Origin: Jiangella sp. DSM 45060
GTDB taxonomy: Bacteria; Actinomycetota; Actinomycetes; Jiangellales; Jiangellaceae
Direction: 5' to 3'
Assembly (NCBI RefSeq): GCF_900105175.1
Contig: NZ_LT629771.1
Location: forward strand, 930,001-994,000
DNA: 64,000 nucleotides
Positions 30,456 to 43,428 of this stretch are shown piece by piece (the stretch's first letter is position 1; the number at the start of each line of letters is the position of its first letter). Position numbers and translations under genes: made by a program. A model generated the notes under the pieces. That model saw only the letters and a program-made list of their open reading frames with translations. It was not told the origin of the DNA and searched no databases.

Positions 30456-32333
30456 TCAGTGGGTCGGCGCAGGGCGCAGCCAGAGGGTGCCCAGCGGCGG
30501 CACCCGCAGCACCGCAGACGCCGGGCGGCCGTGCCAGGGTTCGTCGACCGCGACGACCCGGCCGAGGTTGCCGACGTCCGAACCGCCGTAGAGCGCGGCG
30601 TCGGTGTTCATGACCTCCTGCCACGGCCCCGCCTGCGGCAGCCCCAGCCGGTAGCCCTCGTGCGGCCGCGCGTTGAAGTTCGCGACGCACGCCAGCACCT
30701 CCCCGTCGGGGCCGTGGCGCAGGAACGAGAGCACGTTGCCGGTAGCGTCGTTGGCGTCGATCCACTCGAAGCCGGCCGGGTCGGAGTCGAGCGCCCACAG
30801 CTCCGGCGCGGCCCGGTACGCCGCGTTGAGGTCGGTGACCAGCCGCTGCACCCCCGCGTGCCCCGGCCGCTCCAGCAGCCACCACTCGAGCTCGCGGCCC
30901 TCGGCCCACTCGGACTCCTGGGCCAGTTCACCACCCATGAACAGCAGCTGCTTGCCCGGGTGCGCCCACATGTAGGCGTAGAACGCGCGCAGCGTGGCCA
31001 GCTGCTGCCACCGGTCGCCGGGCAGCTTGCCGAGCAGCGACCCCTTGCCGTGCACGACCTCGTCGTGGGAGAGGGGGAGGACGAAGTTCTCGCTGAACGC
31101 GTACATCATCGAGAACGTCAGCTGATGGTGGTGGTACTGCCGGTGGATCGGGTCGCGCGACAGGTACGCCAGCGAGTCGTGCATCCAGCCCATGTTCCAC
31201 TTCAGCCCGAACCCGAGGCCGCCGAGATGGGTGGGACGGGTGACGCCGGGCCAGGCGGTGGACTCTTCGGCGACGGACACGATGCCGGGCACCGACCGGT
31301 ACGCCGTGGCGTTGGTCTCCTGCAGGAACGCGATGGCGTCGAGGTTCTCGCGGCCGCCGTGCACGTTGGGCAGCCACGCCCCCTCGGCGCGGGAGTAGTC
31401 GAGGTACAGCATGGACGCGACGGCGTCGACGCGCAGGCCGTCGATGTGGTACTCGGTCAGCCAGTAGAGGGCGTTGGCGACGAGGAAGTTGCGCACCTCG
31501 GGGCGGCCGAAGTCGAAGACGTACGTGCCCCAGTCGGGGTGCTCGCCGCGGCGGGGGTCGGCGTGCTCGTAGAGCGGCGTGCCGTCGAACCGGGCCAGCG
31601 CCCAGTCGTCGCGGGGGAAGTGCGCCGGCACCCAGTCGAGCAGCACGCCGATGCCGGCCTGGTGCAGGGTGTCGACGAGGAACTTGAAGTCGTCGGGGTG
31701 GCCGAACCGGGCCGTCGGCGCGTAGTACGACGTCACCTGGTAGCCCCACGAGCCGCCGAACGGGTGCTCGGCGACGGGCAGGAACTCGACGTGGGTGAAG
31801 CCCAGCTCGGTGACGTACTCCGCCAGCTCGACGGCCAGCTCACGGTACGAGCGACCGCGCCGCCACGACCCCAGGTGCACCTCGTACACCGACATCGGGT
31901 GCGCGTGCGCCGACGCGGGCCGCCGGGCCAGCCACGCCTCGTCGTTCCACGCGTGGCGCGACTCGTGCACGATCGACGCCTGCGCGGGCGGCACCTCGGT
32001 GCGGAACGCCATGGGGTCGGCCTTGTCGCGCCAGTGGCCGTCGGCGCCATGCACCTTGAACTTGTACAGCGCGCCGTCGCCGACGCCCGGCACGAACAGC
32101 CCCCACACGCCGCCGCTCAGGCGCGTCATGCTGTGCCGGCCGCCGTCCCAGCCGTTGAACTCGCCGGCCACCTGGACCAGCCGCGCGTTCGGCGCCCACA
32201 CGGTGAACGCGGTGCCCGCGATGCCGTCGATGGTGACGACCCGGGCGCCCAGCACCTCCCAGAGCCGCTCGTGCCGGCCCTCACCGATGAGGTGGAGGTC
32301 GACCTCGCCCAGGAGCCGCTCTGCGCCGATCAT
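30456..32333 (-). CDS. glgB: 1,4-alpha-glucan branching enzyme
   Basis: A 625-aa GH13 enzyme that introduces alpha-1,6 branches into glycogen or alpha-glucan. A CBM48-type N-terminal domain ([22 protein letters not shown]) is followed by the catalytic barrel with [30 protein letters not shown] (nucleophile Asp), VSVAEEST (acid Glu) and [16 protein letters not shown]. It lacks the extra N-terminal domain of longer enzymes (about 730 aa) and so belongs to the short class. The start is supported by TAGGCT 6 nt upstream (leaderless). TreS, maltokinase, phosphorylase and GlgX lie 14-24 kb away in the window. Confidence 0.95.
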
Positions 32334-32359: not shown

Positions 32360-33208
32360 TCAGTAGAGGCGACCCATGATCACCTCGGACACGCGGGCCG
32401 CGGCGAGCTCGGCGGCCGGCCCGAGCCGTTCCAAGCAGCCACGCATCAGGATCTCGAGGACGAACACCTGCACCAGGACGGAGTCGAGGGTGCCGATGGT
32501 GCCCTCGCTCGCGACCTGGAGCACGATGTCGGAGAGCTTGGCGACCGGCGAGCGCGACGCGTTGGTCACCGAGATCACGGTCGCGCCCTGAGCGTGCGCC
32601 AGGCGGACGCAGGCCGTGACGTCCTTCGCGCTGCCGGTCCGGCTGAACGCCAGCACGACGTCCGACGAGTCGAGCAGCGCCGTGGCGCCGAGCAGCACGT
32701 GGAGGTCGGCGTGCGACTCGGCCCGGACCCCGATGCCGAGCAGGTGGTGCGCGGCGGCCTGCGCGGCGATCCCGGAGGCTCCGAGCCCGACGCAGACGAC
32801 CCGGCGTGCCGCGCTGATGGCGTCGGCCGCGCGATCCACCTTGGCCGGATCGAGTAGCCGTGCCGTACGGTTCAGCAGGTCCGCGCTGGTCGAGGCGGCG
32901 AGCTCGATGCCGTTCTCGGCGCTGCCGCCCGCGCTGGCCTCCTCGGCGGCGAGCTCGCGGGCGATGCGGATGCGCAGGTCCTGGTAGCCCTTGAACTGCA
33001 GCCGGCGGCAGTAGCGGCTGATCGTCGCCTCGCTGACGCCGGCGCGATCGGCGAGCTCGGTGATCGACATGCTGATGGCGTCGTCGGGCGATCTGGTGAG
33101 CACGTCGGTGATCTTGCGCTCGGCCGCCGACATCGACGGCAGGCGGTCGGCGAGGAACGCGAGCTGACGTGGGCCGCGGGAGGTGGCTGCGGGGCCGGCA
33201 GATGCCAT
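32360..33208 (-). CDS. MurR/RpiR family transcriptional regulator
   Basis: A 282-aa regulator with an N-terminal RpiR-type HTH (MSITELADRAGVSEATISRYCRRLQFKGYQDL) and a C-terminal SIS sugar-phosphate-binding domain (VVCVGLGASGIAAQAAAHHL, VVLAFSRTGSAKDV, VISVTNASRSPVAKLSD). It is divergent from the amino-sugar locus, and SIS effectors of this family are typically amino-sugar or hexose phosphates. It is therefore the likely regulator, with a phosphorylated intermediate such as ManNAc-6-P or GlcNAc-6-P as effector (inference). The start at ATG 33208 was chosen because a -10 box TATACT ends 7 nt before it; the ATG at 33247 lies upstream of that promoter. Confidence 0.9.
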   Translation of the reverse strand: MASAGPAATSRGPRQLAFLADRLPSMSAAERKITDVLTRSPDDAISMSITELADRAGVSEATISRYCRRLQFKGYQDLRIRIARELAAEEASAGGSAENGIELAASTSADLLNRTARLLDPAKVDRAADAISAARRVVCVGLGASGIAAQAAAHHLLGIGVRAESHADLHVLLGATALLDSSDVVLAFSRTGSAKDVTACVRLAHAQGATVISVTNASRSPVAKLSDIVLQVASEGTIGTLDSVLVQVFVLEILMRGCLERLGPAAELAAARVSEVIMGRLY

Positions 33209-33215
33209 GGGACTG

Positions 33216-33235
33216 AGTATAGAGCGAAAATTTTC
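33216..33235 (-). promoter_or_regulatory. -10 box and palindromic operator of the RpiR gene
   Basis: Minus strand TATACT (33216-33221), with the perfect palindrome GAAAATTTTC (33226-33235) directly upstream in the -10/-35 spacer. The A+T-rich palindrome stands out in this GC-rich window and fits the GAAA...TTTC style of RpiR-family sites. It suggests autorepression. Confidence 0.6.
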
Positions 33236-33271
33236 TTCATCTCCCATTTGAAGTGATGACGAACTTGCCTC

Positions 33272-33300
33272 TTGACACGGTCTGCGGCGGTGTGGAGACT
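33272..33300 (+). promoter_or_regulatory. candidate promoter of the amino-sugar operon
   Basis: TTGACA at 33272-33277 with a weak -10 (GAGACT, 33295-33300) 17 bp later, 68 bp before the first gene. Confidence 0.35.
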
Positions 33301-33368: not shown

Positions 33369-35870
33369 ATGAGTTCGCATCGCCTACGCGCCTACCGCCG
33401 CGCCGTCATCCCGGTGATCATCGGGCTGCTGGCAGCACTCCTGCCGGGAGCCGGCGTGACCACGCCGGCGCACGCGGAGGAGGAGGTCGTCCTCAGTGAC
33501 GGCTTCGAAGCCGGCAACGACTGGACGCTCTACAGCAACGGAACCGGCCCGACGTTCGACCTCGTCGCCGACCCCGTCCGCAGCGGGTCCGCGGCGCTGA
33601 CGATGGGCGCGGGCGCGAACCCCGGCCAGAGCGAGATCGGCGTCGCGGCGATCCGGTCCGGCCTGTCCGTCGCCGAGAACTCCAGCGTGCTGTCGTTCTG
33701 GTACTACGCGGGCGGCGACGCGACCTACCGGGGCCTGTCGGTCGAACTGCACACGCCGGCCAAGGTCTACAGCACGCTGCTGCCCGACGTCGTGCGGCTG
33801 GGCGCCTGGCAGCAGGTCAGCGTCCGGTTCACCGACGTCGCACCGGAGCTGGCCGGAGCGACGATCACCACGGTCGTGATCAAGGCGATCACCGACCCCG
33901 CCGCCGGCCGGTCCTCGTTCACCCTCGACGACGTCGAGGTGCGCAACGGCGTCCCGGTCGTGGTGCCGGCGCCCGAGCTGCTGGCGGCGAGTCCCGCACC
34001 CGGCGCCACCGCCGTCGGCCGCGACCGGGTGGTCACCGTCTTCTTCGACCAGCCGCTGGACCCGGCCTCGGTCGTCGACCAGAACGTCACCGTCGTGCGG
34101 GGCCGGAGCGCCCAGCCGGTCGCCGGAGCGGTGCGCCACCTGTCCGGCGCCCGGGCGGTCGTCTTCGTCCCGGACCGCCCGCTGCTGCCCGGCACGACCT
34201 ACACGGTGCGCGTCGACGGCATCCGCAGCCTCGGCGGCCCCGCTCTCGCGGCGCCGGTGACGACGACGTTCGCCACCGGCTCCCGGATGACGTCGGCCGA
34301 GCAGTCCTTCGCTGACGATCTCACCGAGATCGGCGACTGGCGGCTTTACACCAACGCCGCGGGGGCAGCCACCCAGACCCTCACCGCCGACCCGGCGCTC
34401 GCGCCCGGTCAGGCGCTCACCGCGAGTGCGTCGGACCCCGCACAGCCGTTCGTGCTCTCGCACATCCACCCGCTCCCGGTGGTCGACGAGAACAGCGTGA
34501 TCAGCTTCTCCTACTTCGTCACCGGCACCGCCGCGCCCGCGGAGCTCCAGGTCATGCTCACCTCGTCCGACGGACGGAGCAAGCAGGTCAGCCTGGCCGC
34601 CGGCGAGGTGCGCACCGGCGAGTGGGCCACGGTGAGCGTGGCCGTCCCGGACGTGTCACGGTCGCTGGCCGGCTTTCCGCTGGCCTCGATGGAGCTCAAG
34701 CTGGCCACCGCGACCGGCGGTGACGCCCGGTTCAGCATCGACCGCGTGCGGGTCGGCTCCGACCCGGCCGCCTTCGAGGTGCTGCCGCCGAGCCAGGCCG
34801 GCGAACAGCGGCCGCGGCTCGACGACGTGCCGGCCGCCGACCGGCAGCGCATCCGCGACCTCGCCGATCACATCCTCACCACCCAGAACCCGGACGGCAG
34901 CATCCCGGTCGGCCCCGAGGGCCTCAACTCCACCCGGTACGTGGGCTACTTCAGCACCTTCGCCGCGCTGGGCCTCGTCCGCGCGTACGAGCTCACCCGC
35001 GACCAGCGCTACCTCGACGGCGCCCAGCTGTACGCCGTCTGGTACCGCGACCACCTGAACCCGGACGGCAGCATGAACGACTTCTCCGGGACGTGGCCGG
35101 ACCTGACCGACACGCTGACCGCGGACTCGGTCGACTCGTACGCCTCCACGTACCTGCTGCTGCTCATGCACCTCGTTCAGGTGCAGGAGAGCCGGGCCGC
35201 CCACGACGCCGCTCTGGACCGGTGGTTCCCGATCGCCCAGCGGGTGTTCGGCGCCCTCAACGGCACCTACGTGTCGAACGGGCAGACCGAGGTCAGGCCC
35301 GGCTACCCGGTGCAGTTCATCCAGGACAACTCCGAGACGTGGTTCGGCCTGCAGGCGATGGCCTGGCTGGCCGGCGCCGCCGGGGACGCGGCGACCGCCA
35401 GGGTCGCCACGGCGCTCGCCGGACGCACCCAGTACGGCATCCGGCACGCCTACCTGCGCGACGCCACCGAGGACTACGGGGTCGCGATCACCCGGCCGAC
35501 CTGGGAGGTCCAGCCGACCGGTCCGCTGGTCACCTGGTACCCGGACGCGCTGTCCAACGTGCTGCCGCTCGGCGTGATCGGCGGCGGCCCGGGACAGCCC
35601 GGCGACGGCGACGCCGCCCTGCTGCGCCGGCTGGTCCAGCAGTTCGACGTCGAAAGCGACGACACCCGCCCGACCCATATCAACGACACCCAGATGTACC
35701 TGTGGTGGGCGATGTCCGGGCTGACCACCGGCCAGCCCGACCTCGCCGCGCACTTCGTCGACCGGTTCGACGACGCCGAACTCGCCGGCAACCACGTGGC
35801 GCTCGGGTTCGCCGCCGCCCACCTCATTCGAGTGCTGTCCTTCCCGTACGACGACACGCTCTGGCTCTAG
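33369..35870 (+). CDS. secreted multi-domain protein with alpha/alpha-barrel catalytic-type domain
   Basis: An 833-aa exported protein with a Sec signal peptide ending in TPAHA before EEE. Residues about 35-200 are a jelly-roll/LamG-like carbohydrate-binding module (DGFEAGNDWTLYSNGTGPTF). About 205-300 is a bacterial Ig-like domain (LLAASPAPGATAVGRDRVVTVFFDQPLDPAS). A second jelly-roll repeats the first (FADDLTEIGDWRLYTNAAG). From about 490 to the end is an (alpha/alpha)6-type domain with repeated helices (DHILTTQNPDGSIP, GYFSTFAALGLVRAYELTRDQRYLDGA, DNSETWFGLQAMAWLAG). It is probably a glycoside hydrolase or polysaccharide lyase releasing the sugar that the following importer takes up. No known family can be fixed by eye. 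Confidence 0.78.
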   Translation: MSSHRLRAYRRAVIPVIIGLLAALLPGAGVTTPAHAEEEVVLSDGFEAGNDWTLYSNGTGPTFDLVADPVRSGSAALTMGAGANPGQSEIGVAAIRSGLSVAENSSVLSFWYYAGGDATYRGLSVELHTPAKVYSTLLPDVVRLGAWQQVSVRFTDVAPELAGATITTVVIKAITDPAAGRSSFTLDDVEVRNGVPVVVPAPELLAASPAPGATAVGRDRVVTVFFDQPLDPASVVDQNVTVVRGRSAQPVAGAVRHLSGARAVVFVPDRPLLPGTTYTVRVDGIRSLGGPALAAPVTTTFATGSRMTSAEQSFADDLTEIGDWRLYTNAAGAATQTLTADPALAPGQALTASASDPAQPFVLSHIHPLPVVDENSVISFSYFVTGTAAPAELQVMLTSSDGRSKQVSLAAGEVRTGEWATVSVAVPDVSRSLAGFPLASMELKLATATGGDARFSIDRVRVGSDPAAFEVLPPSQAGEQRPRLDDVPAADRQRIRDLADHILTTQNPDGSIPVGPEGLNSTRYVGYFSTFAALGLVRAYELTRDQRYLDGAQLYAVWYRDHLNPDGSMNDFSGTWPDLTDTLTADSVDSYASTYLLLLMHLVQVQESRAAHDAALDRWFPIAQRVFGALNGTYVSNGQTEVRPGYPVQFIQDNSETWFGLQAMAWLAGAAGDAATARVATALAGRTQYGIRHAYLRDATEDYGVAITRPTWEVQPTGPLVTWYPDALSNVLPLGVIGGGPGQPGDGDAALLRRLVQQFDVESDDTRPTHINDTQMYLWWAMSGLTTGQPDLAAHFVDRFDDAELAGNHVALGFAAAHLIRVLSFPYDDTLWL

Positions 35871-35898: not shown

Positions 35899-37191
35899 GT
35901 GAACCGTTACCGCCTTGCCCGGGCAGCGACCGCCGCTGTCCTCGTCCTGACCATCGCGGCCTGCGGCGGCCCGAGCTCGTCGCCGTCCGGCTCCGGTGAG
36001 GACGACACCGAGCTCGTGTTCTGGCACTACTTCACCGACCGTGAGGAGCTGCTGCAGCAGTTCGCGGACGAGTACGAGGCCGAGACCGGGGTGAGCATCG
36101 ACCTCGTGCTCGTGCCCGGCGACACGCTGGGCCAGAAGTTCCAGGCCGCGGCGCAGGCCGGCACGCTGCCGGACATCTCCGCGGCGTGGGCCGGCGTCGG
36201 CGAGGAGACCGCTCCGTACGCCCGCGAGGGTCAGATCGCCGACCTCTCCGCGGAGATGGCGGACGGCTGGTCCGACCGGTTCGAGCCGAGCCTGCTCGCG
36301 GCCGCGTCCTTCCCGGAGGGCAATGGCTTCGACGTCCCGCCCGGGCCGTACTTGGTGCCGCTGGACAGCACGAACATGCAGATCCTCTACAACAAGCAGA
36401 TGTTCGCCGATGCCGGCATCACCGAGCTGCCGACCACCTGGGACGACTTCATCGCCGCCGGCCGGCAGCTGGCGGAGGCGGGATTCGAGCCGTTCACGGC
36501 CGGGTTCGGTCAGTGGCCGCTGAGCTCGTTCGCCCAGGTCTACCAGTGGAACGTCATCGGTGAGGAGGACCTGAAGGCGACCTTCGCCGGGACCATGCCC
36601 TACACCGCCGAGCCCTGGGTGCGCATGCTGGGCCTGTTCGAGGAGCTCGGCCAGGCGGGGATCCTGGCCGACGGCACGGTCACCAACGACGCCCCCGCGT
36701 CGGAGTCGCTGTTCGTCAACGGGCAGGCGGCCATGCTGTTCGACGGGTCCTGGGCGCTCGGGGTGTTCAAGCAGCAGAACCCGTCGTTCACCGACTACGG
36801 CGTCTTCGTCCCGCCGTCGGCCGGAGACCACGCGGTACGTCTTCCGGGAGGCGTCGGCGCCATGGTCTTCGCCGTCGGGTCCTCGCCGCACCGGGACGAG
36901 GCGGTGGAGTTCCTGCAGTGGCTGACCGACACCGAGCGGCAGCGCACCTACGCCACCGAGAGCCTGAACCTGCCGGCCAACACCGACGCGGTCGACGACG
37001 GGCTGGACGAGAACCTGGCCGCGTTCGCGGCGCAGGGCGACGCCGTCGCGCCGACGCTGCCGACCCCGATGCCGCTCGAGGTCGACACCACCATGACCAA
37101 GGGGATCCAGCGCATCCTGCAGGGCCAGGACACCCCGGAGGGAGTGGCCGCGCTCATGCAGAAGGCGGCCGAGACCGGTCAGGCGCAATGA
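35899..37191 (+). CDS. solute-binding lipoprotein of amino-sugar ABC importer
   Basis: A 430-aa family 1 extracellular binding protein. Signal peptide with lipobox IAAC (Cys about residue 22), Ser/Gly-rich linker, and the binding fold (LVFWHYFTDREELLQQFADEYEAETG; VPLDSTNMQILYNKQMFADAGI). GTG start with AGAAAG upstream, 28 bp after the secreted protein. Overlaps the first permease by ATGA. Likely ligand: an oligosaccharide containing ManNAc, GlcNAc or a similar amino sugar, inferred from the kinase and epimerase downstream. Confidence 0.92.
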   Translation: MNRYRLARAATAAVLVLTIAACGGPSSSPSGSGEDDTELVFWHYFTDREELLQQFADEYEAETGVSIDLVLVPGDTLGQKFQAAAQAGTLPDISAAWAGVGEETAPYAREGQIADLSAEMADGWSDRFEPSLLAAASFPEGNGFDVPPGPYLVPLDSTNMQILYNKQMFADAGITELPTTWDDFIAAGRQLAEAGFEPFTAGFGQWPLSSFAQVYQWNVIGEEDLKATFAGTMPYTAEPWVRMLGLFEELGQAGILADGTVTNDAPASESLFVNGQAAMLFDGSWALGVFKQQNPSFTDYGVFVPPSAGDHAVRLPGGVGAMVFAVGSSPHRDEAVEFLQWLTDTERQRTYATESLNLPANTDAVDDGLDENLAAFAAQGDAVAPTLPTPMPLEVDTTMTKGIQRILQGQDTPEGVAALMQKAAETGQAQ

Positions 37192-38120
37192 CCACCTCCA
37201 CTGTGCAGCGGCCGCCGGTCGCGGCCGGGGCGACCCGGCCGCGGCGGCGCCGCCGGTCCGGCGAGGCGTGGGTCGGCTACCTGCTGGTCGCCCCGGTCGT
37301 TGCGCTGTTCCTCGTCTTCTCCGCCTATCCGCTGCTGCGGACCGCGCAGATCAGCGTCACCGATTGGAACGGCCTGTCGGCGCACTTCGACTACGTCGGG
37401 CTGGCCAACTACTCCCGGGTGCTGACCGACCGGATCTGGGGGATCGCGCTGTGGCACGGGCTGCTGTTCGCCGTCGTCGCGCTGACGGTCATGCAGGGGA
37501 TCGGGCTGGCGCTGGCGGTCGCCGTGGCCAGGCTGGTCCGGTCGGCGGGCATCTACCGGGTCTTCTTCTACCTGCCGCCGATCCTCTCCGCCATCGTCGT
37601 GGCGCTTGTCTGGAAGTGGTTCTACCAGCCGCACGGCGGTCCGCTGAACGAGCTGCTGGCCTCGGTCGGCCTCGACTCGCTGGCCCGGCCCTGGCTGGCG
37701 GACTCGTCGACGGCGCTGTGGGCCGTGTCGGCGGCGTCGGTCTGGCAGGGCGTCGGGACGCCGTTCCTGTTCTTCCTCGCTGCGGTGCAGGCCGTGCCGA
37801 CGGAGCAGCTGGAGGCGGCCACCATGGACGGGGCGGGCGCGTGGCGGCGCTTCCGGGCCGTGACGCTGCCGTCGATCATGCCGGTGATCGGGCTGGTCAG
37901 CGTGCTGACGCTGCTCGGCGCCATGCAGATCTTCAACCTCGTGCTGGCGATGACGAACGGCGGACCGGGCTATGACACCGAGGTGCCCGTGCTGAACATC
38001 TACCGCAACGCGTTCGAGCTGGGCGAGTTCGGCTACGCGACCGCACAGTCGATCGTCTTCGGCCTGGTGCTGTTCGTCGTGTCCGGCGTGGCCATGGTCC
38101 TGTCGCGGCGGAGGAGCTGA
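37188..38120 (+). CDS. ABC transporter permease (MalF-type) of amino-sugar importer
   Basis: A 310-aa CUT1 permease with a basic N-terminus (RPRRRRRSGE), about six membrane segments and an EAA loop (TEQLEAATMDGAGAWRRFRAVTLPSI), ending in a VLSRRRS tail. ATG overlaps the stop of the binding protein gene. As in the first importer, no ATPase gene is present, so a shared ATPase is inferred. Confidence 0.93.
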   Translation: MTTSTVQRPPVAAGATRPRRRRRSGEAWVGYLLVAPVVALFLVFSAYPLLRTAQISVTDWNGLSAHFDYVGLANYSRVLTDRIWGIALWHGLLFAVVALTVMQGIGLALAVAVARLVRSAGIYRVFFYLPPILSAIVVALVWKWFYQPHGGPLNELLASVGLDSLARPWLADSSTALWAVSAASVWQGVGTPFLFFLAAVQAVPTEQLEAATMDGAGAWRRFRAVTLPSIMPVIGLVSVLTLLGAMQIFNLVLAMTNGGPGYDTEVPVLNIYRNAFELGEFGYATAQSIVFGLVLFVVSGVAMVLSRRRS

Positions 38121-38122
38121 TC

Positions 38123-38953
38123 GTGACGAGGACCAGCAGGCTCGGCACGACGGTCACCCACCTCGGCCTGATCGTCTGGGCCGTCGGCTCGGTGCTGCCG
38201 ATGGTGTACATGCTGTCGGCGTCGTTCCAGCCCACCGAGGACATCTACGCCGGCATCTCGCTGTGGCCGGGCCGGTGGACGTTCGACAACTACCGCGAGT
38301 CGTGGCAGGGCGCCGACTTCGGCGTCTACCTCGGGAACAGCGTCCTGTACACCACCGTGACGACGGCCGCGGTGCTGGTGTTCGGCGCGGGCGCGGCCTA
38401 CGCCTTCGCCCGGCTGCGCTTCCCCGGCCGGGAACTGATCTACACGGCGCTGCTGGTGTTCCTGTTCCTGCCCATCCCCGGTGTCTTCATCCCGCTCTAC
38501 ACCGTGCTGGTGAGCCTGAACCTCGCCGACACCCGGATCGGCTACGTCCTGCCGCTGATCAACGCCTCGCTGCCGGTCGCGGTCTTCATCATGCGCCGGT
38601 TCTTCGAGCAGCTGCCCGAGGAGATCGACGACGCGGCGCGGATGGACGGCGCCGGCCCGGTCACGATCTTCTGGCGGATCGCCGTACCGCTGGCCCGCCC
38701 CGCCCTGGCCACCGTCGCCATCCTCACGGTGCTGAACTCGTGGAACGAGTTCGTGCTGGCGCTGATCGTGTTCTCGGACGAGAGCCTGATGCCGTTGCAG
38801 GTGGGGCTGCAGACCTTCCAGGGCACCTACTTCGCCCAGTACGGGCTGATGATGGCCGCCCTGACCGTCTCGACGGTGCCGGTCGTGATCGTCTACCTGC
38901 TGTTCCAGCGCAACATCATCAAGGGCATCACCGCCGGGGCGGTGAAGGGATGA
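38123..38953 (+). CDS. ABC transporter permease (MalG-type) of amino-sugar importer
   Basis: A 276-aa partner permease. It has the ASFQPTEDIY segment after the first helix, about six membrane helices, an EAA loop (LPEEIDDAARMDGAGPVTIFWRI) and the tail KGITAGAVKG. GTG start 2 nt after the upstream stop with GGAGG before it. Overlaps the kinase gene by ATGA. Confidence 0.93.
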   Translation: MTRTSRLGTTVTHLGLIVWAVGSVLPMVYMLSASFQPTEDIYAGISLWPGRWTFDNYRESWQGADFGVYLGNSVLYTTVTTAAVLVFGAGAAYAFARLRFPGRELIYTALLVFLFLPIPGVFIPLYTVLVSLNLADTRIGYVLPLINASLPVAVFIMRRFFEQLPEEIDDAARMDGAGPVTIFWRIAVPLARPALATVAILTVLNSWNEFVLALIVFSDESLMPLQVGLQTFQGTYFAQYGLMMAALTVSTVPVVIVYLLFQRNIIKGITAGAVKG

Positions 38954-39966
38954 CCGCCCGCCTGGTGATCGGGGTGGACGGCGGCCAGTCGTCGACGCGC
39001 TGCCTGCTCGGCGCCGACGACGGCAGGCTGCTCGGGTGGGCGACCGGCCCGCCCGTGCGCCACGGCGCCGCCCCTGGCGCGGCCGACGACCTGCGCGCCG
39101 TCGTCGACCAGATCCTGGCCGACGTGACGGCGTCGGCCGGCGCCGCGCCGGGCGACGTCGTCGCCGCGCACCTGAGCCTGACGTCGGGGCTGGTGGTCGC
39201 GCGCGCCCAGGCGGAGCTCCGGCTGCCGGCTGCCACCGTGACCGCCGACAGCGACGCGGTCGGAGCGCTCGCGACCGTCACGACCGGGGCCGGCGCCGTG
39301 CTCGCGGCCGGCACCGGCGTGGTGGCCATGGCTCTCGGGCCGGACGGGCAGCGGGTCGAGGTAGGCGGCTGGGGAGCCGACCTCGGCGACGAGGGCGGCG
39401 CCTACTGGCTGGGGCTGCGGCTGCTGCAGGCCGCCACCCACGCCGCGGACGGCCGCGGACCCCGCAGCCCGCTCATCGACCGGGTGCCCGGCCTGCTGAG
39501 CGAGGCCGGGATCGTCGACGCGGCCGAGCTGCGCGAGTTGCCCGGCTGGATCGCCTCCGGGCAGCTGGACCGTCCGGCGATCGCCCGGCTCGCGGCCGCC
39601 GTCGCCGCGGCGGCCGCCGCCGGTGACCCCGTCGGGTCCCGGCTCGCCGACCGCGCCGGAGCGGAGCTGGCCCGCTGCGGCGACGCCTTGCTGCGCGCCG
39701 CCGGCTTCCTGCCCCGTCCGCGGCGGCTGGTGCTGGCCGGGGGCGTGCTCGAGGCCGGCGGCCCGGTCGCCGACAGCCTCGCCCGGCAGCTGGCCGACGC
39801 GCAGCCGCAGGTCGCCCTGATCCGCCCCGAGGCGCCACCGGTCGTGGGCGCCTACCTGCTCGGACTGCGGACCGCGGGGTCCGAGGCCGACCGCCTGCGC
39901 CGCGCGGCCATCGAGAGCTACGACGCACTGATGCGAGACCGACGTCCCATGGATGAGGAGAGATGA
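38950..39966 (+). CDS. BadF/BadG/BcrA-type sugar kinase (N-acetylhexosamine kinase-like)
   Basis: A 338-aa ASKHA-fold kinase resembling eukaryotic/bacterial N-acetylglucosamine kinase. Phosphate-1 motif GVDGGQSSTRCLL, a second phosphate motif AAGTGVVAMAL, GGWGADLGDEGGAYWLG, and the adenosine motif RLVLAGGVLEAGG. In this operon it would phosphorylate imported ManNAc or GlcNAc at C6 before NanE. Starts inside the upstream stop and overlaps nanE by ATGA. Exact sugar unproven. Confidence 0.83.
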   Translation: MTARLVIGVDGGQSSTRCLLGADDGRLLGWATGPPVRHGAAPGAADDLRAVVDQILADVTASAGAAPGDVVAAHLSLTSGLVVARAQAELRLPAATVTADSDAVGALATVTTGAGAVLAAGTGVVAMALGPDGQRVEVGGWGADLGDEGGAYWLGLRLLQAATHAADGRGPRSPLIDRVPGLLSEAGIVDAAELRELPGWIASGQLDRPAIARLAAAVAAAAAAGDPVGSRLADRAGAELARCGDALLRAAGFLPRPRRLVLAGGVLEAGGPVADSLARQLADAQPQVALIRPEAPPVVGAYLLGLRTAGSEADRLRRAAIESYDALMRDRRPMDEER

Positions 39967-40706
39967 CGTACCAGCACAACGCCAGCACCCGCCCGGCCCG
40001 GCCGGACCCGCCGGGGGAGGCCGCCGTGGCCAGCATCGCCGGAGGCGTCGTCGTCTCCTGCCAGGCCGGGCCGGAGAGCCCCCTGAACACCCCGGGCATC
40101 CTGGCGGCGCTGGCCCAGTCCGCCGAGCGGGGCGGTGCGGCGGGCTTCCGCGTCGACGGGCCCGCGAACATCGCCGCGATCCGTCTCGGCAGCGACCTGC
40201 CGATCATCGGCATCCGGAAGTGTCACGTCCCGGGCTCGGACGTCTACATCACGCCGACGCTGAGCGACGCGCAGGAGATCGTCGCGGCCGGCGCCGACGT
40301 CGTCGCGCTGGACGGGACCCCGCGCCCGCGGCCCGGCGGCGAGCGGCTGGAGACCATCATCGAGCGCATCCACGACGACCTGCGGGTCCCGGTGATGGCC
40401 GACATCGCCACCGGGGACGAAGGACTGGCCGCACACGACGCGGGCGCCGACCTGGTGGCGACGACGCTGGCCGGTTACACCACTCCGGGCGACCGGCGCA
40501 CCGGGCCGGCGTTCGACGTCCTCGACCGGCTGGCGGCCGCCGGTGCGAGGTGCGTCGTCGAGGGCCGGATCTGGACCGTCGAGGACGTGCGGCGCTGCTT
40601 CGACGCGGGCGCCTACGCCGTGGTCATCGGCTCGGCTATCACCGTTCCCGAGTTCATCACCCGGCGTTTCGTCGGCGCCACGAGGAGTCACGTTGAGCTG
40701 CACTGA
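39963..40706 (+). CDS. nanE: N-acylmannosamine-6-phosphate 2-epimerase
   Basis: A 247-aa NanE-type TIM barrel that converts N-acetylmannosamine-6-phosphate to N-acetylglucosamine-6-phosphate. Recognisable: GGVVVSCQAGPESPLN, GGAAGFRVDGPANIAAIR, LPIIGIRKCHVPGSDVYITPT (with the active-site Lys), GADVVALDGTPRPRP, VVEGRIWTVEDV (active-site Glu) and AVVIGSAITVPEFITRRFV. No sialic-acid lyase (NanA) or NagA/NagB is encoded nearby, so ManNAc may come directly from the medium rather than from sialic acid. The first about 25 residues are Pro-rich and not conserved. Confidence 0.9.
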   Translation: MTYQHNASTRPARPDPPGEAAVASIAGGVVVSCQAGPESPLNTPGILAALAQSAERGGAAGFRVDGPANIAAIRLGSDLPIIGIRKCHVPGSDVYITPTLSDAQEIVAAGADVVALDGTPRPRPGGERLETIIERIHDDLRVPVMADIATGDEGLAAHDAGADLVATTLAGYTTPGDRRTGPAFDVLDRLAAAGARCVVEGRIWTVEDVRRCFDAGAYAVVIGSAITVPEFITRRFVGATRSHVELH

Positions 40707-41442
40707 CACGGCCATGAGCGACTACTTCGACGCGTTGCAGGCGCTGCTGCGCGACCTGCGCGAGCAGGAGTGGGACGCGTTGCGACGAGCCGCCGACGTC
40801 TGTGCCGAGGCGGTCGCCGCTCGCGGAGTCATCCACGTTTTCGACACCGGTCACCTGCTCTCGCACGAGATGATCTGCCGCACCGGCGGGCTCGTGGCCT
40901 ACACCCCGCTGCGCATCGCCGGGACCGTCGACAACACCAACCCGCACCGCGGTGCCGCCGCACCGTCCGGCGAGGAGGCCGACCGGCGGCTGGTGGAGTG
41001 GGCCCTCTCCGGCGGGACGCTGCGCCGTGGTGACGTGCTGGTCATGAGCTCGGTCTCGGGAACGTCCGCCCTCGTGGTCGAGCTGACGCTGGCGGCCCAG
41101 GCGCTCGGCGTGACCGTCGTCGCCGTCACCGCGGTGCGGCACTCCAGCCGGCTGCCGTCCGGGCACTCCAGCGGCAGGCGGCTGCACGAGATCGCTGACG
41201 TCGTGCTCGACGACCACGCCGACTACGGCGACAGCATGATCGAGGTGGCCGGGCTCGGCAAGCGGATCAACCCCGCCTCGGGGGTGACCGGGGCGGTGCT
41301 GATGTGGGCGCTCAACGCCGGGGTCGTCGAGCGGCTGCTCGCCCGCGGTGTCGTGCCCAGCGTCTACACCAGCGTGCACCTGCCCGACGGACGGCGGCAG
41401 CTGGCCGAGGTCGAGGAGCGGTACCGGGTGGAGGGCCGGTGA
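40693..41442 (+). CDS. SIS domain protein A (UPF0309-like)
   Basis: A 249-aa SIS-fold protein with the sugar-phosphate site pattern VIHVFDTGHLLSHEMICRTGG, VLVMSSVSGTSALVVELTLAAQ and RLHEIADVVLDDHADYGDS, similar to UPF0309-type proteins. I prefer the TTG start at 40693 because GAGGAG (40682-40687) lies 5 nt upstream and it overlaps nanE by 14 bp; the ATG at 40714 has no ribosome site and would give 242 aa. Probably an isomerase or sugar-phosphate-binding factor for an amino-sugar phosphate. The catalytic role is not established. Confidence 0.83.
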   Translation: MSCTDTAMSDYFDALQALLRDLREQEWDALRRAADVCAEAVAARGVIHVFDTGHLLSHEMICRTGGLVAYTPLRIAGTVDNTNPHRGAAAPSGEEADRRLVEWALSGGTLRRGDVLVMSSVSGTSALVVELTLAAQALGVTVVAVTAVRHSSRLPSGHSSGRRLHEIADVVLDDHADYGDSMIEVAGLGKRINPASGVTGAVLMWALNAGVVERLLARGVVPSVYTSVHLPDGRRQLAEVEERYRVEGR

Positions 41443-42218
41443 GCGAGTACGACGCCTATCTCGACCAGGTGGCGGCGGCCCTCGACGCCGCCCGGGCCCA
41501 GGGGCCGACGATCGATACCGCCGCCACCTGGATGGCTGACGCCATCGCCGGCGGCCGCGTCGTGACGGTGTTCGGCGCCAGCCACGCCGGCCTGCTCGCA
41601 CAGGACCTCATGTACCGCGCCGGGGGACTGGCCGCGATCGACGCCGTGCTGCCGCGGCAGCTCATGCTCGACACCCGGCCGGTCACCGACACCACGGCGT
41701 GGGAGCGCCGGCCCGGCTTCGGCGCCGAGCTGTTCGCCGGCCGCGGCCTCGGGCCCGGCGACGTCGTGATCCTGATCTCGGTGTCGGGCCGCAACCCGGT
41801 CATCGTCGAAGCCGCGACCACGTGTGCGGCGGCGGGCGCCCGGGTCATCGCCGTGACCAGCCTGGAGTACTCCCGGTCGGTCACCGGTCGCGGCGGACCG
41901 CGGCTGTTCGAGGTCGCGGACCTCGTGATCGACCTCCCGGGCCGGGTCGGCGATGCCTCCGTCCAGCTCGCGGCGGACTGCTGGGCCGGACCCACCTCGT
42001 CGGCGGTGGGCGCCGCCGTCCTGCACGGCCTCTGCGTCACCGCGGCGGCGCAGCTCGTCCGGCGAGGGGTCGAGACACCGGTGTTCCAGTCGGCGAACAC
42101 CGACGACGGCGACGCCGCCAACGCGCGGCTGCTGGCGCGATATCGCGACCGCGTCGGCTACCTGGAGGGCTCGGCCATCACCACTGGTCCTTTTCCGGAG
42201 CCGGTCCGGTCATGGTGA
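41439..42218 (+). CDS. SIS domain protein B (UPF0309-like)
   Basis: A 259-aa paralog of the preceding protein and closer to the UPF0309 consensus: VVTVFGASHAGLLAQDLMYRAGGLAAIDAV, VVILISVSGRNPVIVEAA, VIAVTSLEYSRSV, LFEVADLVIDLPGRVGDAS, TPVFQSANTDDGDAANARLLARY. GTG overlaps the stop of SIS protein A. Its last 13 codons overlap the 3' end of the convergent MFS gene by 41 bp. Family members usually end near the RYRxRI segment, so the terminal residues look like a tail acquired from the inserted neighbour. Confidence 0.83.
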   Translation: MSEYDAYLDQVAAALDAARAQGPTIDTAATWMADAIAGGRVVTVFGASHAGLLAQDLMYRAGGLAAIDAVLPRQLMLDTRPVTDTTAWERRPGFGAELFAGRGLGPGDVVILISVSGRNPVIVEAATTCAAAGARVIAVTSLEYSRSVTGRGGPRLFEVADLVIDLPGRVGDASVQLAADCWAGPTSSAVGAAVLHGLCVTAAAQLVRRGVETPVFQSANTDDGDAANARLLARYRDRVGYLEGSAITTGPFPEPVRSW

Positions 42219-43428
42219 CGCCATCGTGGGTTGAGCGGCGTGCCCGGTCGAGGAGGATGAGGGGTACAGCAGCTGCCGCGAGGGCGGCCCCGATCAGGCA
42301 CACGGTTGTGAGGGCCGCCCCTTGTGTGAGTGCAGCGGCTGCGAGAACGGGGGTGATGCTGATTCCCAGTTGGAATGCCGACACGGTGGTGGCACCGGCG
42401 AGGGTGGGCGCGTCGGCTGCGATGGTGAAGACGCGGCCGAAGACGGCGGGGTTCAGTACGAATGCGGCGATACCGATCAGGACAACGATGGGCACCACCA
42501 CCCAGGCCTGCTGGATCGCAGCAGTCATCACCACCGACAAGATCACGATCGCTGATGCACCAGTCAGGAGTGCGAGGTGCGGCCGCTGATCGGAGACCCG
42601 GCCACCGATGGACAGACCGATGAAGGCGCCGACCCCCAAGAGCGCGAGCACGCCCGGGATCCAGACTTCGGGCATGCCGGTGATGTCTTCGAGCATGGCC
42701 GCCAGGAAGTTGAACGTGATCATGTACGCCGCGGTGGTCAGGAGCGTGATCGCATGGATGACCCACAGACTCGGGTTCCGCATCGTGGCGAACTCCCGCG
42801 ACAAGCTCGGCCCGGTGGAGTCGGCGGAGTCGGAGTTGGCGGCGGCGGGTAGCCCGAGGAGGCACCCGATGGTCCCTACGACCGTGAGGGCAACGACGGT
42901 CCAGAAGCCGGTGCGCCACTGGGTGAAGTGGCTGAGCAGCGTGCCTACAGGACCACCAGCCACCATGGCCACACTGAGCCCGCTCACCACGACTCCGGAG
43001 GCGCGGGCTCTACAGTCCGGTGTCACCAGGCTGATCGCAGTCACCGCCGCGACGGCAAAGAAGGCCGCGTAAGCGATGCCCGCGACCAGTCGCGTGACCA
43101 ACAGGACCTCATAGCTGCCCAGCTGTCCGACGGCAATACTGACGGCGAAGACACACTGGCTGGCCACCAGCGCGGTGCGGCGCGGCCAGCGCAGGCTGAG
43201 CACAGCGAACGGTGGCCCCCCGACCACGACGCCCAGCGCGAACGCCGTGATCAGGAACCCGGCAGAGGAGAGCGTGACATCCACGTCAGCGGCGACCGCC
43301 GGCAGTACGCCGGCCAACAGGAACTCCGCGCTACCCATGGCGAACAGGCTGAAGCCGAGCAGATACACCCCCGCAGGCAATCTCGTGGATCGACCGCTCA
43401 GGGACGACTCTGCGGTAGTGCCGGCCAT
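42178..43428 (-). CDS. MFS transporter (AraJ/Cmx-like)
   Basis: A 416-aa major facilitator with about 12 membrane segments. DHA1-type motif A region (VVGGPPFAVLSLRWPRRTALVAS) after the second helix and a motif-C-like glycine-rich stretch (GLSVAMVAGGPVGTLLSHFTQWR) fit a proton-coupled drug or metabolite exporter. Its codon use is visibly less GC-rich than the flanking genes. ATG overlaps the stop of the upstream broken flavoprotein frame in TGATG, which shows that they once formed an operon. Probably controlled by the divergent XRE-cupin regulator. Confidence 0.88.
   Translation of the reverse strand: MAGTTAESSLSGRSTRLPAGVYLLGFSLFAMGSAEFLLAGVLPAVAADVDVTLSSAGFLITAFALGVVVGGPPFAVLSLRWPRRTALVASQCVFAVSIAVGQLGSYEVLLVTRLVAGIAYAAFFAVAAVTAISLVTPDCRARASGVVVSGLSVAMVAGGPVGTLLSHFTQWRTGFWTVVALTVVGTIGCLLGLPAAANSDSADSTGPSLSREFATMRNPSLWVIHAITLLTTAAYMITFNFLAAMLEDITGMPEVWIPGVLALLGVGAFIGLSIGGRVSDQRPHLALLTGASAIVILSVVMTAAIQQAWVVVPIVVLIGIAAFVLNPAVFGRVFTIAADAPTLAGATTVSAFQLGISITPVLAAAALTQGAALTTVCLIGAALAAAAVPLILLDRARRSTHDGVTMTGPAPEKDQW

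Follow-up and report, generated by a model that had tools for sequence, protein, structure and literature searches.

A rare secreted protein with a barrel-like domain of no assigned family, encoded at the head of an amino-sugar operon in Jiangella sp. DSM 45060, as a candidate polymer-cleaving enzyme

The window analysed here is a stretch of 64,000 nucleotides from Jiangella sp. DSM 45060 (contig NZ_LT629771.1, positions 930,001 to 994,000). It carries an open reading frame (ORF) at 33369-35870 on the forward strand that begins with ATG and stays open through 833 codons. The encoded protein contains no cysteine. It is predicted to consist of a signal sequence, two related modules around an Ig-like domain, and a C-terminal helical domain for which the libraries searched hold no family (Table 1). 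Downstream lie genes for an ATP-binding cassette (ABC) importer, a sugar kinase, a putative N-acetylmannosamine (ManNAc)-6-phosphate 2-epimerase and two NagS-like SIS proteins. We tentatively propose that the protein is a secreted glycoside hydrolase (GH) of a small, unassigned (alpha/alpha)6-barrel family, which would free N-acetylhexosamine-containing oligosaccharides from a glycan.

Table 1. The gene for the 833-residue protein, its domains and the surrounding genes (positions in the window).
Feature	Position	Strand	Basis or remark
GlgB-like alpha-amylase-family gene	30456..32333		upstream of the enzyme gene
RpiR/MurR-type regulator	32360..33208	-	HTH_6 and SIS over cut-off
Palindrome GAAAATTTTC, candidate operator	33226..33235		sole copy in the window; identical in genome G004
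Secreted multidomain enzyme candidate	33369..35870	+	833 residues
Predicted signal sequence, residues 1-36	33369..33476	+	by eye: basic start, hydrophobic stretch, AHA
Beta-sandwich-like module 1, residues 38-197	33480..33959	+	repeat of module 2; alone without Pfam match
Big_5 Ig-like domain, residues 201-303	33969..34277	+	Pfam, E 1.6e-14, over cut-off
Beta-sandwich-like module 2, residues 310-475	34296..34793	+	repeat of module 1; MAM 18.0 bits, below cut-off
(Alpha/alpha)-barrel-like domain, residues 482-833, without family	34812..35867	+	library searches, model, structure comparison
D586 and D589	35124..35135	+	conserved in 5/7 and 6/7 rows of alignment A3
D653-x-x-E656, proposed acid pair	35325..35336	+	A3 conservation; role inferred
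D726	35544..35546	+	conserved in 5/7 rows of A3
Sugar ABC solute-binding protein (SBP)	35899..37191	+	SBP_bac_1, 5e-37
ABC permease 1	37188..38120	+	BPD_transp_1
ABC permease 2	38123..38953	+	BPD_transp_1
BadF-type, NagK-like sugar kinase	38950..39966	+	BcrAD_BadFG 93.7 bits, over cut-off
Putative ManNAc-6-phosphate 2-epimerase (NanE-like)	39963..40706	+	PRK01130, 255.5 bits vs cut-off 189
SIS-A, NagS-like	40714..41442	+	PRK02947, 200.9 vs cut-off 135; NagS structure E 2.5e-27
SIS-B, NagS-like	41439..42218	+	PRK02947, 235.2 vs cut-off 135; NagS structure E 6.2e-38
Major facilitator superfamily (MFS) transporter	42178..43428	-	near Cmx/CmrA chloramphenicol efflux model, below cut-off (365 vs 400 bits)
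ORF of 1014 residues	44375..47419	-	sole Pfam match at E <= 0.001: maltokinase N-terminal cap

Judged by their sequences, modules 1 and 2 are true relatives of each other. They share 54 identities over 155 aligned pairs with a local score of 151, a value reached by none of 2000 shuffles (mean 33.2, standard deviation 5.6). The motifs that the original prediction had quoted for this repeat lie at residues 44-58 and 316-330. The Ig-like domain that it had seen between the two modules is there as well, with 54.9 bits against a Big_5 cut-off of 23.6. Its own alignment score with module 1 is reached by 1054 of 2000 shuffles and that with module 2 by 269 of 2000. The jelly-roll fold proposed for both modules is probable, yet the label is weak. 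MAM, which we take to be a jelly-roll family, scores 26.5 for the whole protein (cut-off 26.4) and 28.9 for the N-terminal 481 residues; module 2 alone stays below the cut-off and module 1 alone matches nothing in Pfam. CBM_4_9 leaves only a trace (E 0.1).

The C-terminal domain had been described as a barrel that could not be placed by eye, and the libraries agree. For residues 482-833 no family of Pfam-A or NCBIfam, lyase or hydrolase, scores over its cut-off, and NCBIfam yields none at E <= 1. GH15 gives no match over cut-off in either library. Neither Pec_lyase (polysaccharide lyase family PL10) nor Glyco_hydro_76 (GH76) matches the domain at E <= 10. The sole Pfam trace is C5-epim_C (E 0.015, 15.2 bits against a cut-off of 23.3, over 42 residues). 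The protein alone finds no relevant match among the sequences of the PDB. As to the domains and the absence of a matching family from the libraries searched, the original prediction was right.

Profiles reach further than the single sequence. The profile of four rows (A2) finds GH76 mannanases in the PDB at E 1.3e-4 to 1.1e-3 and MmpH, a methylmannose polysaccharide hydrolase, at 0.0025; the best stretches cover about one helical hairpin. With seven rows (A3) the best GH76 match is at 0.0032 and the best MmpH match at 0.28; AprG at 0.0045 and a glucan 1,4-alpha-glucosidase at 0.0077 fall in this interval. With two rows (A4) GH76, MmpH, AprG and glucan 1,4-alpha-glucosidase are all unlisted at E <= 10, and the relatives L013 and L017, used as single queries, match nothing in the PDB at that threshold. 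We read the profile matches as fold-level echoes, not as membership.

These matches also bear on one alternative. The protein could be a glycosidase of a neutral polymer such as alpha-mannan or alpha-glucan, and its place in the operon would then reflect either a minor amino-sugar content of that polymer or a chance assembly of the genes. Among PDB sequences A2 matches GH76 mannanases and MmpH best, MmpH and dextran dextrinase head the structural list given below, and the GlgB-like gene lies upstream. Against this, the A2 matches amount to one helical hairpin, weaken with A3 and disappear with A4. N-acetylhexosamines are indicated by each of the kinase, epimerase and SIS genes, and the enzyme co-occurs with the importer. 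We consider a neutral substrate unlikely.

The domain was modelled with AlphaFold together with the homologue L016. This two-sequence model has a predicted template-modelling score (pTM) of 0.65 and a mean predicted local distance difference test score (pLDDT) of 56.4; a full-length model from one sequence has a pLDDT of 38.9. Between domain residues 11 and 210, 13 of 20 ten-residue blocks have a mean pLDDT of at least 67. The modelled domain is helical, and its helices pair as in an (alpha/alpha) barrel. The originally proposed barrel is the probable fold class, in a model of which one half is reliable.

Foldseek finds nothing at E <= 0.001 with the two-sequence model, and a search of BFVD gives no match below E 0.12. 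The top two Foldseek rows are the polysaccharide lyase BACCELL_00875 (E 0.015 and 0.019), followed by a mixture of complement fragments, a PL10 lyase (E 0.063) and glycosidases. The lyase rows have low TM-scores, 0.29-0.33 of the query. VIA-align 2, run over the top chains of Foldseek, orders the structures differently. MmpH comes first (PDB 7qsj; Z 19.4, 269 of 352 residues, root-mean-square deviation 4.1, 17% identity), with half of the model below pLDDT 50. Dextran dextrinase (9ju0; Z 19.1, 293 aligned) is tied with it. The remaining 48 listed rows, at Z 16.5-14.7, include glycosidases, phosphorylases, epimerases and a polysaccharide lyase; among them are BACCELL_00875 and glucodextranase 1ug9 (both Z 16.1) and the GH76 enzyme BT2949 (Z 14.9). 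The typical best Z of helical models without a clear match is 14, so the pair of MmpH and dextran dextrinase stands out modestly.

Two further alternatives draw in part on this comparison. In the first, the protein belongs to the (alpha/alpha) toroid class of polysaccharide lyases and acts by beta-elimination on a uronic-acid-containing amino-sugar polymer. The Foldseek order and the Z of BACCELL_00875 speak for it, whereas MmpH and dextran dextrinase outscore the lyase structure in VIA-align 2. In the second, the barrel works on a surface glycan without cleaving it, for instance as an isomerase or epimerase. The C5-epim_C trace fits this, as do structures of mannose isomerase and 2-epimerase at Z 14.7-16.3. 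These scores are below family cut-offs or no better than those of other barrels, and cleavage would better suit a protein that is secreted, has two modules likely to serve in binding and is encoded next to an importer. A non-cleaving protein is thus the least probable of the readings considered here, and a very improbable one.

Conservation was counted in A3. All seven rows have D653, and at position 656 five have a glutamate and two an aspartate. Y548, W558, Y703, W712 and W723 are invariant as well. In the model, D586 and D589 sit at the start of helix 4, and D653 and E656 in the first part of helix 6. D509 lies in the loop between helices 1 and 2 (by eye), and the distant rows lack it. In (alpha/alpha) barrel enzymes the catalytic acids are held at the loop-side helix ends, and GH15 enzymes have a D-x-x-E motif whose general acid is found at the loop joining helices 5 and 6. 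Because of its conservation, its position in helix 6 and this GH15 arrangement, we propose E656 as the general acid. Helix 3 ends with H562 and Y559, which are common to the four rows of A2 and could serve lyase chemistry.

The family is rare and its relatives are few. Full-length copies occur in two of 12 same-genus genomes, the own genome included; the other is G004 (90% identity). The other six matching genomes among the 60 searched have short matches only. In the taxonomic family, the C-terminal domain matches in three of 22 genomes at E <= 0.001, the third of which, G006, has two partial matches, one of them (L008) within a GH127-like protein. In class genomes, A1 finds 8 of 296 at 0.001 and A2 finds 3 of 393 at 1e-6. 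The phylum gives 3 of 396 genomes with the single sequence and 7 of 396 with A2 at 1e-4. One of 24 genomes matches in the class of G242 and one of three in the order of G448. Many matches of these wide searches are partial, and only the first few candidates per genome were scored, so some relatives may have been missed. In a scan of genome contigs one relative was confirmed, and it is identical with the protein L013. A phage or plasmid gene was considered and rejected: tblastn with the domain found no match in either collection, from which records of the own genome may be omitted, and in three scans of viral contigs no match was confirmed. One plasmid matched the operon DNA, over 1% of the operon length only.

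Several candidates were left out of A3. These are the short matches L003-L007, L009 and L011, together with L010, L019-L024 and L035; L008 (GH127 over cut-off); L014; L018 (GH88-like by eye); and L034 (a methyltransferase-like ORF by eye). L033 was retained despite a match over just 66 profile positions. L014 (277-2220) is an odd fusion of 647 residues, which combines AMMECR1 (over cut-off) with a region of helical-barrel type that matches GH127 below threshold. L013/L016, L017 and L031 appear by eye to be secreted single-domain proteins, and at the end of L013 arginines follow a hydrophobic stretch. The more remote L032 and L033 share 14% and 20% of their residues, respectively, with the window domain. 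L031 adjoins a multi-spanning membrane protein, and L032 an apparent processive glycosyltransferase (both by eye). Neighbouring ORFs in other genomes were chosen by eye, and six were tested for L026, three for L025, six for L070 and four for L071. The tested neighbours of L013 are a ParA-type ATPase, an alanine dehydrogenase and a NUDIX protein, plus three ORFs without a match. Those of L017 are an MFS and a PilZ protein, plus one ORF without a match.

The operon is compact. Four of its gene junctions are overlaps of four bases (SBP/permease 1, permease 2/kinase, kinase/NanE and SIS-A/SIS-B), and 28 bases separate the enzyme gene from the SBP gene. The kinase reaches 56.5 bits against NagK_SO3507, below the cut-off of 370. 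NagA is encoded elsewhere in the genome, with three matches over cut-off. The original prediction had taken the operon to suggest an enzyme that opens an amino-sugar polymer. The link of the operon to amino sugars is stronger than had been stated: the putative ManNAc-6-phosphate 2-epimerase is over its cut-off, and two NagS homologues follow it. That this enzyme would open such a polymer is read from gene order. Among the operon proteins tested, no uronate-processing (unsaturated-uronate) family scores over its cut-off, which tells against a lyase; the search for such families was confined to these proteins.

A sialic acid operon is not favoured. The best NanA match in the genome has 128.1 bits against a cut-off of 382, an equivalog cut-off that is strict and is passed by one of 14 control genomes. 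Outside the window, at G000:C1:2382603-2384404 (reverse strand), a nagA-like match over cut-off adjoins a second NanE-like copy, which makes a separate amino-sugar locus. The MFS transporter and the ORF of 1014 residues lie beyond the SIS genes on the reverse strand (Table 1).

The control region lies between the enzyme gene and the divergent regulator. The regulator start at 33208 is common to G004, where an ORF of 282 codons begins at the equivalent position, and a start at 33247 is absent from G004. With 33208 as the start, the palindrome GAAAATTTTC falls between the divergent genes. Its core is AT-only in a window of 72% G+C, and the surrounding block is nearly identical in G004. That it is the operator of the RpiR-type regulator is a guess. 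TTGACA at 33272-33277 and GAGACT at 33295-33300, spaced by 17 bases (by eye), could be a promoter.

Enzyme and importer travel together. At E <= 1e-60 the SBP is found in two of 22 family genomes, the same two that have the full enzyme. In G004 a close NanE copy (94%) follows the SBP at a distance of about 4.1 kb, the same arrangement as in the window, and at the level of ORF layout the two loci agree. NanE itself is wider, with 32 of 296 class genomes at E <= 1e-30. The locus of G011 has NanE, a regulator of the GntR/UTRA type and a SIS_2 gene; one long upstream ORF encodes an alpha/beta-hydrolase-fold protein. Since SBP and enzyme co-occur, while NanE is found more widely and G011 has no match to the enzyme domain, the intracellular steps are more general than the pair of enzyme and importer.

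Taken together, we tentatively favour the secreted hydrolase. The two beta-sandwich modules and the Ig-like spacer would attach the protein to a glycan that is insoluble or exposed on a surface. Cutting of the chain would fall to the C-terminal barrel and its carboxylate pair, most likely with E656 (beside D653) as the acid and D586, D589 or D726 as the base. Freed oligosaccharides with an N-acetylhexosamine, for example ManNAc or N-acetylglucosamine (GlcNAc), would enter through the ABC importer. The NagK-like kinase would phosphorylate the imported sugar, the NanE-like enzyme would epimerise it at C2, and the product would then pass to the two NagS-like proteins and to NagA. The data establish the gene and its domains, how rare the family is, what the operon contains and that enzyme and importer co-occur; the acting residues and the substrate are proposals. 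We infer the hydrolase activity from two observations: the two best structural neighbours, MmpH and dextran dextrinase, act on alpha-glycosides, and the operon proteins tested match no uronate family over cut-off.

Several points weigh against this proposal. No hydrolase family matches the domain over its cut-off, and the lyase stands at the head of the Foldseek list. From domain residue 211 onward all 15 blocks have a pLDDT below 50, which leaves the second half of the model unreliable, and D726 is placed in that half. The last third of the domain holds no conserved acid in A3, so any choice of the catalytic base is tentative. L032 scores over the Pec_lyase cut-off (26.8 against 22). G011 has a related NanE/SIS_2 locus, yet no match to the enzyme domain in its genome. 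Finally, the tested neighbours of L013 and L017 are not sugar genes; a link to amino sugars is therefore not common to all family members, and this tells against a family-wide role.

The lyase is hence a serious rival, and the hydrolase is kept ahead of it without much margin. L032 also matches the NCBIfam pectate lyase model, if far below the cut-off (25.9 against 189.8). The support from L032 is reduced by its low identity to the window domain, which has no Pec_lyase match of its own. We regard a lyase as rather unlikely, if a little less so than a glycosidase of a neutral polymer.

A bolder version of the hydrolase proposal seems to us improbable. In it, the protein is the founding member of a new glycosidase family, its polymer contains N-acetylmannosamine or a C3-substituted N-acetylhexosamine, and the paired SIS proteins are an eliminase for the imported, phosphorylated product. 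If true, the cell would have a way to take up a polymer for which no opening enzyme is known among those described. The hints that the operon gives to the substrate are unusually specific, with a putative ManNAc-6-phosphate epimerase and two NagS-like proteins. A word search for 'mannosaminidase' had no match in the literature searched; an enzyme that cuts at ManNAc would thus have little precedent under that name in that literature. More generally, should the domain prove to be an active enzyme, a new family of barrels that cut polymers would begin with it.

Among known systems, NagS is the closest guide to the SIS proteins. According to PMC12680351, NagS (Streptomyces coelicolor SCO4393, PDB 9eol) is a GlcNAc-6-phosphate dehydratase that also acts on ManNAc-6-phosphate. 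SIS-B keeps seven of the nine residues named there (H53, R64, E94, S119, S121, D179 and N228) and differs by S54A and S91T. SIS-A has a histidine for N228 and a gap at S54, and its S91/E94 region is not clearly aligned. The two genes are a tandem overlapping pair, of which only SIS-B keeps most of the tested residues of NagS. SIS-A and SIS-B may work as catalytic and partner subunits. The same paper gives negligible or no GlcNAc-6-phosphate activity for NagS homologues at 26-36% identity, so likeness to NagS does not settle their substrate.

The lyases BACCELL_00875 and PL10 resemble the window domain through the top Foldseek rows and through L032, and differ in that the domain itself lacks a Pec_lyase match. 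The GH76 alpha-1,6-mannanases are the best PDB sequence matches of A2 and A3, and BT2949 is among the structural rows; what matches is a repeated hairpin. The signature of GH76 is an adjacent pair of aspartates. With the GH15-type enzymes, dextran dextrinase 9ju0 (presumably GH15) and glucodextranase, the window domain shares a probable barrel and a D-x-x-E near helix 6. It differs from them in having no GH15 match over cut-off and no conserved late acid as base. Glucodextranase is placed in GH15 by PMC9883506.

MmpH, from Mycolicibacterium hassiacum, is the best structural row and has the (alpha/alpha)6-barrel fold that is probable for the window domain. Its likeness in sequence spans one hairpin with A2, fades with A3 and is gone with A4. 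An assignment of MmpH to GH188 was rejected, GH188 being a family of sulfoquinovosidases (PMC11465081). PMC9883506 puts the proposed acid of MmpH, Asp47, in the loop that joins helices A and B, a different location from that of E656 in helix 6, and this also speaks against our assignment. The catalytic residues of MmpH to be compared are Asp47/Asp50 as acid and Glu262 as base; D509 of the window domain sits (by eye) in the helix 1-2 loop that corresponds to the acid's position. The two proteins seem to differ in setting as well: the same paper places the MmpH gene within a cluster for making methylmannose polysaccharide (PMC9883506), whereas the window protein is predicted to be exported and modular.

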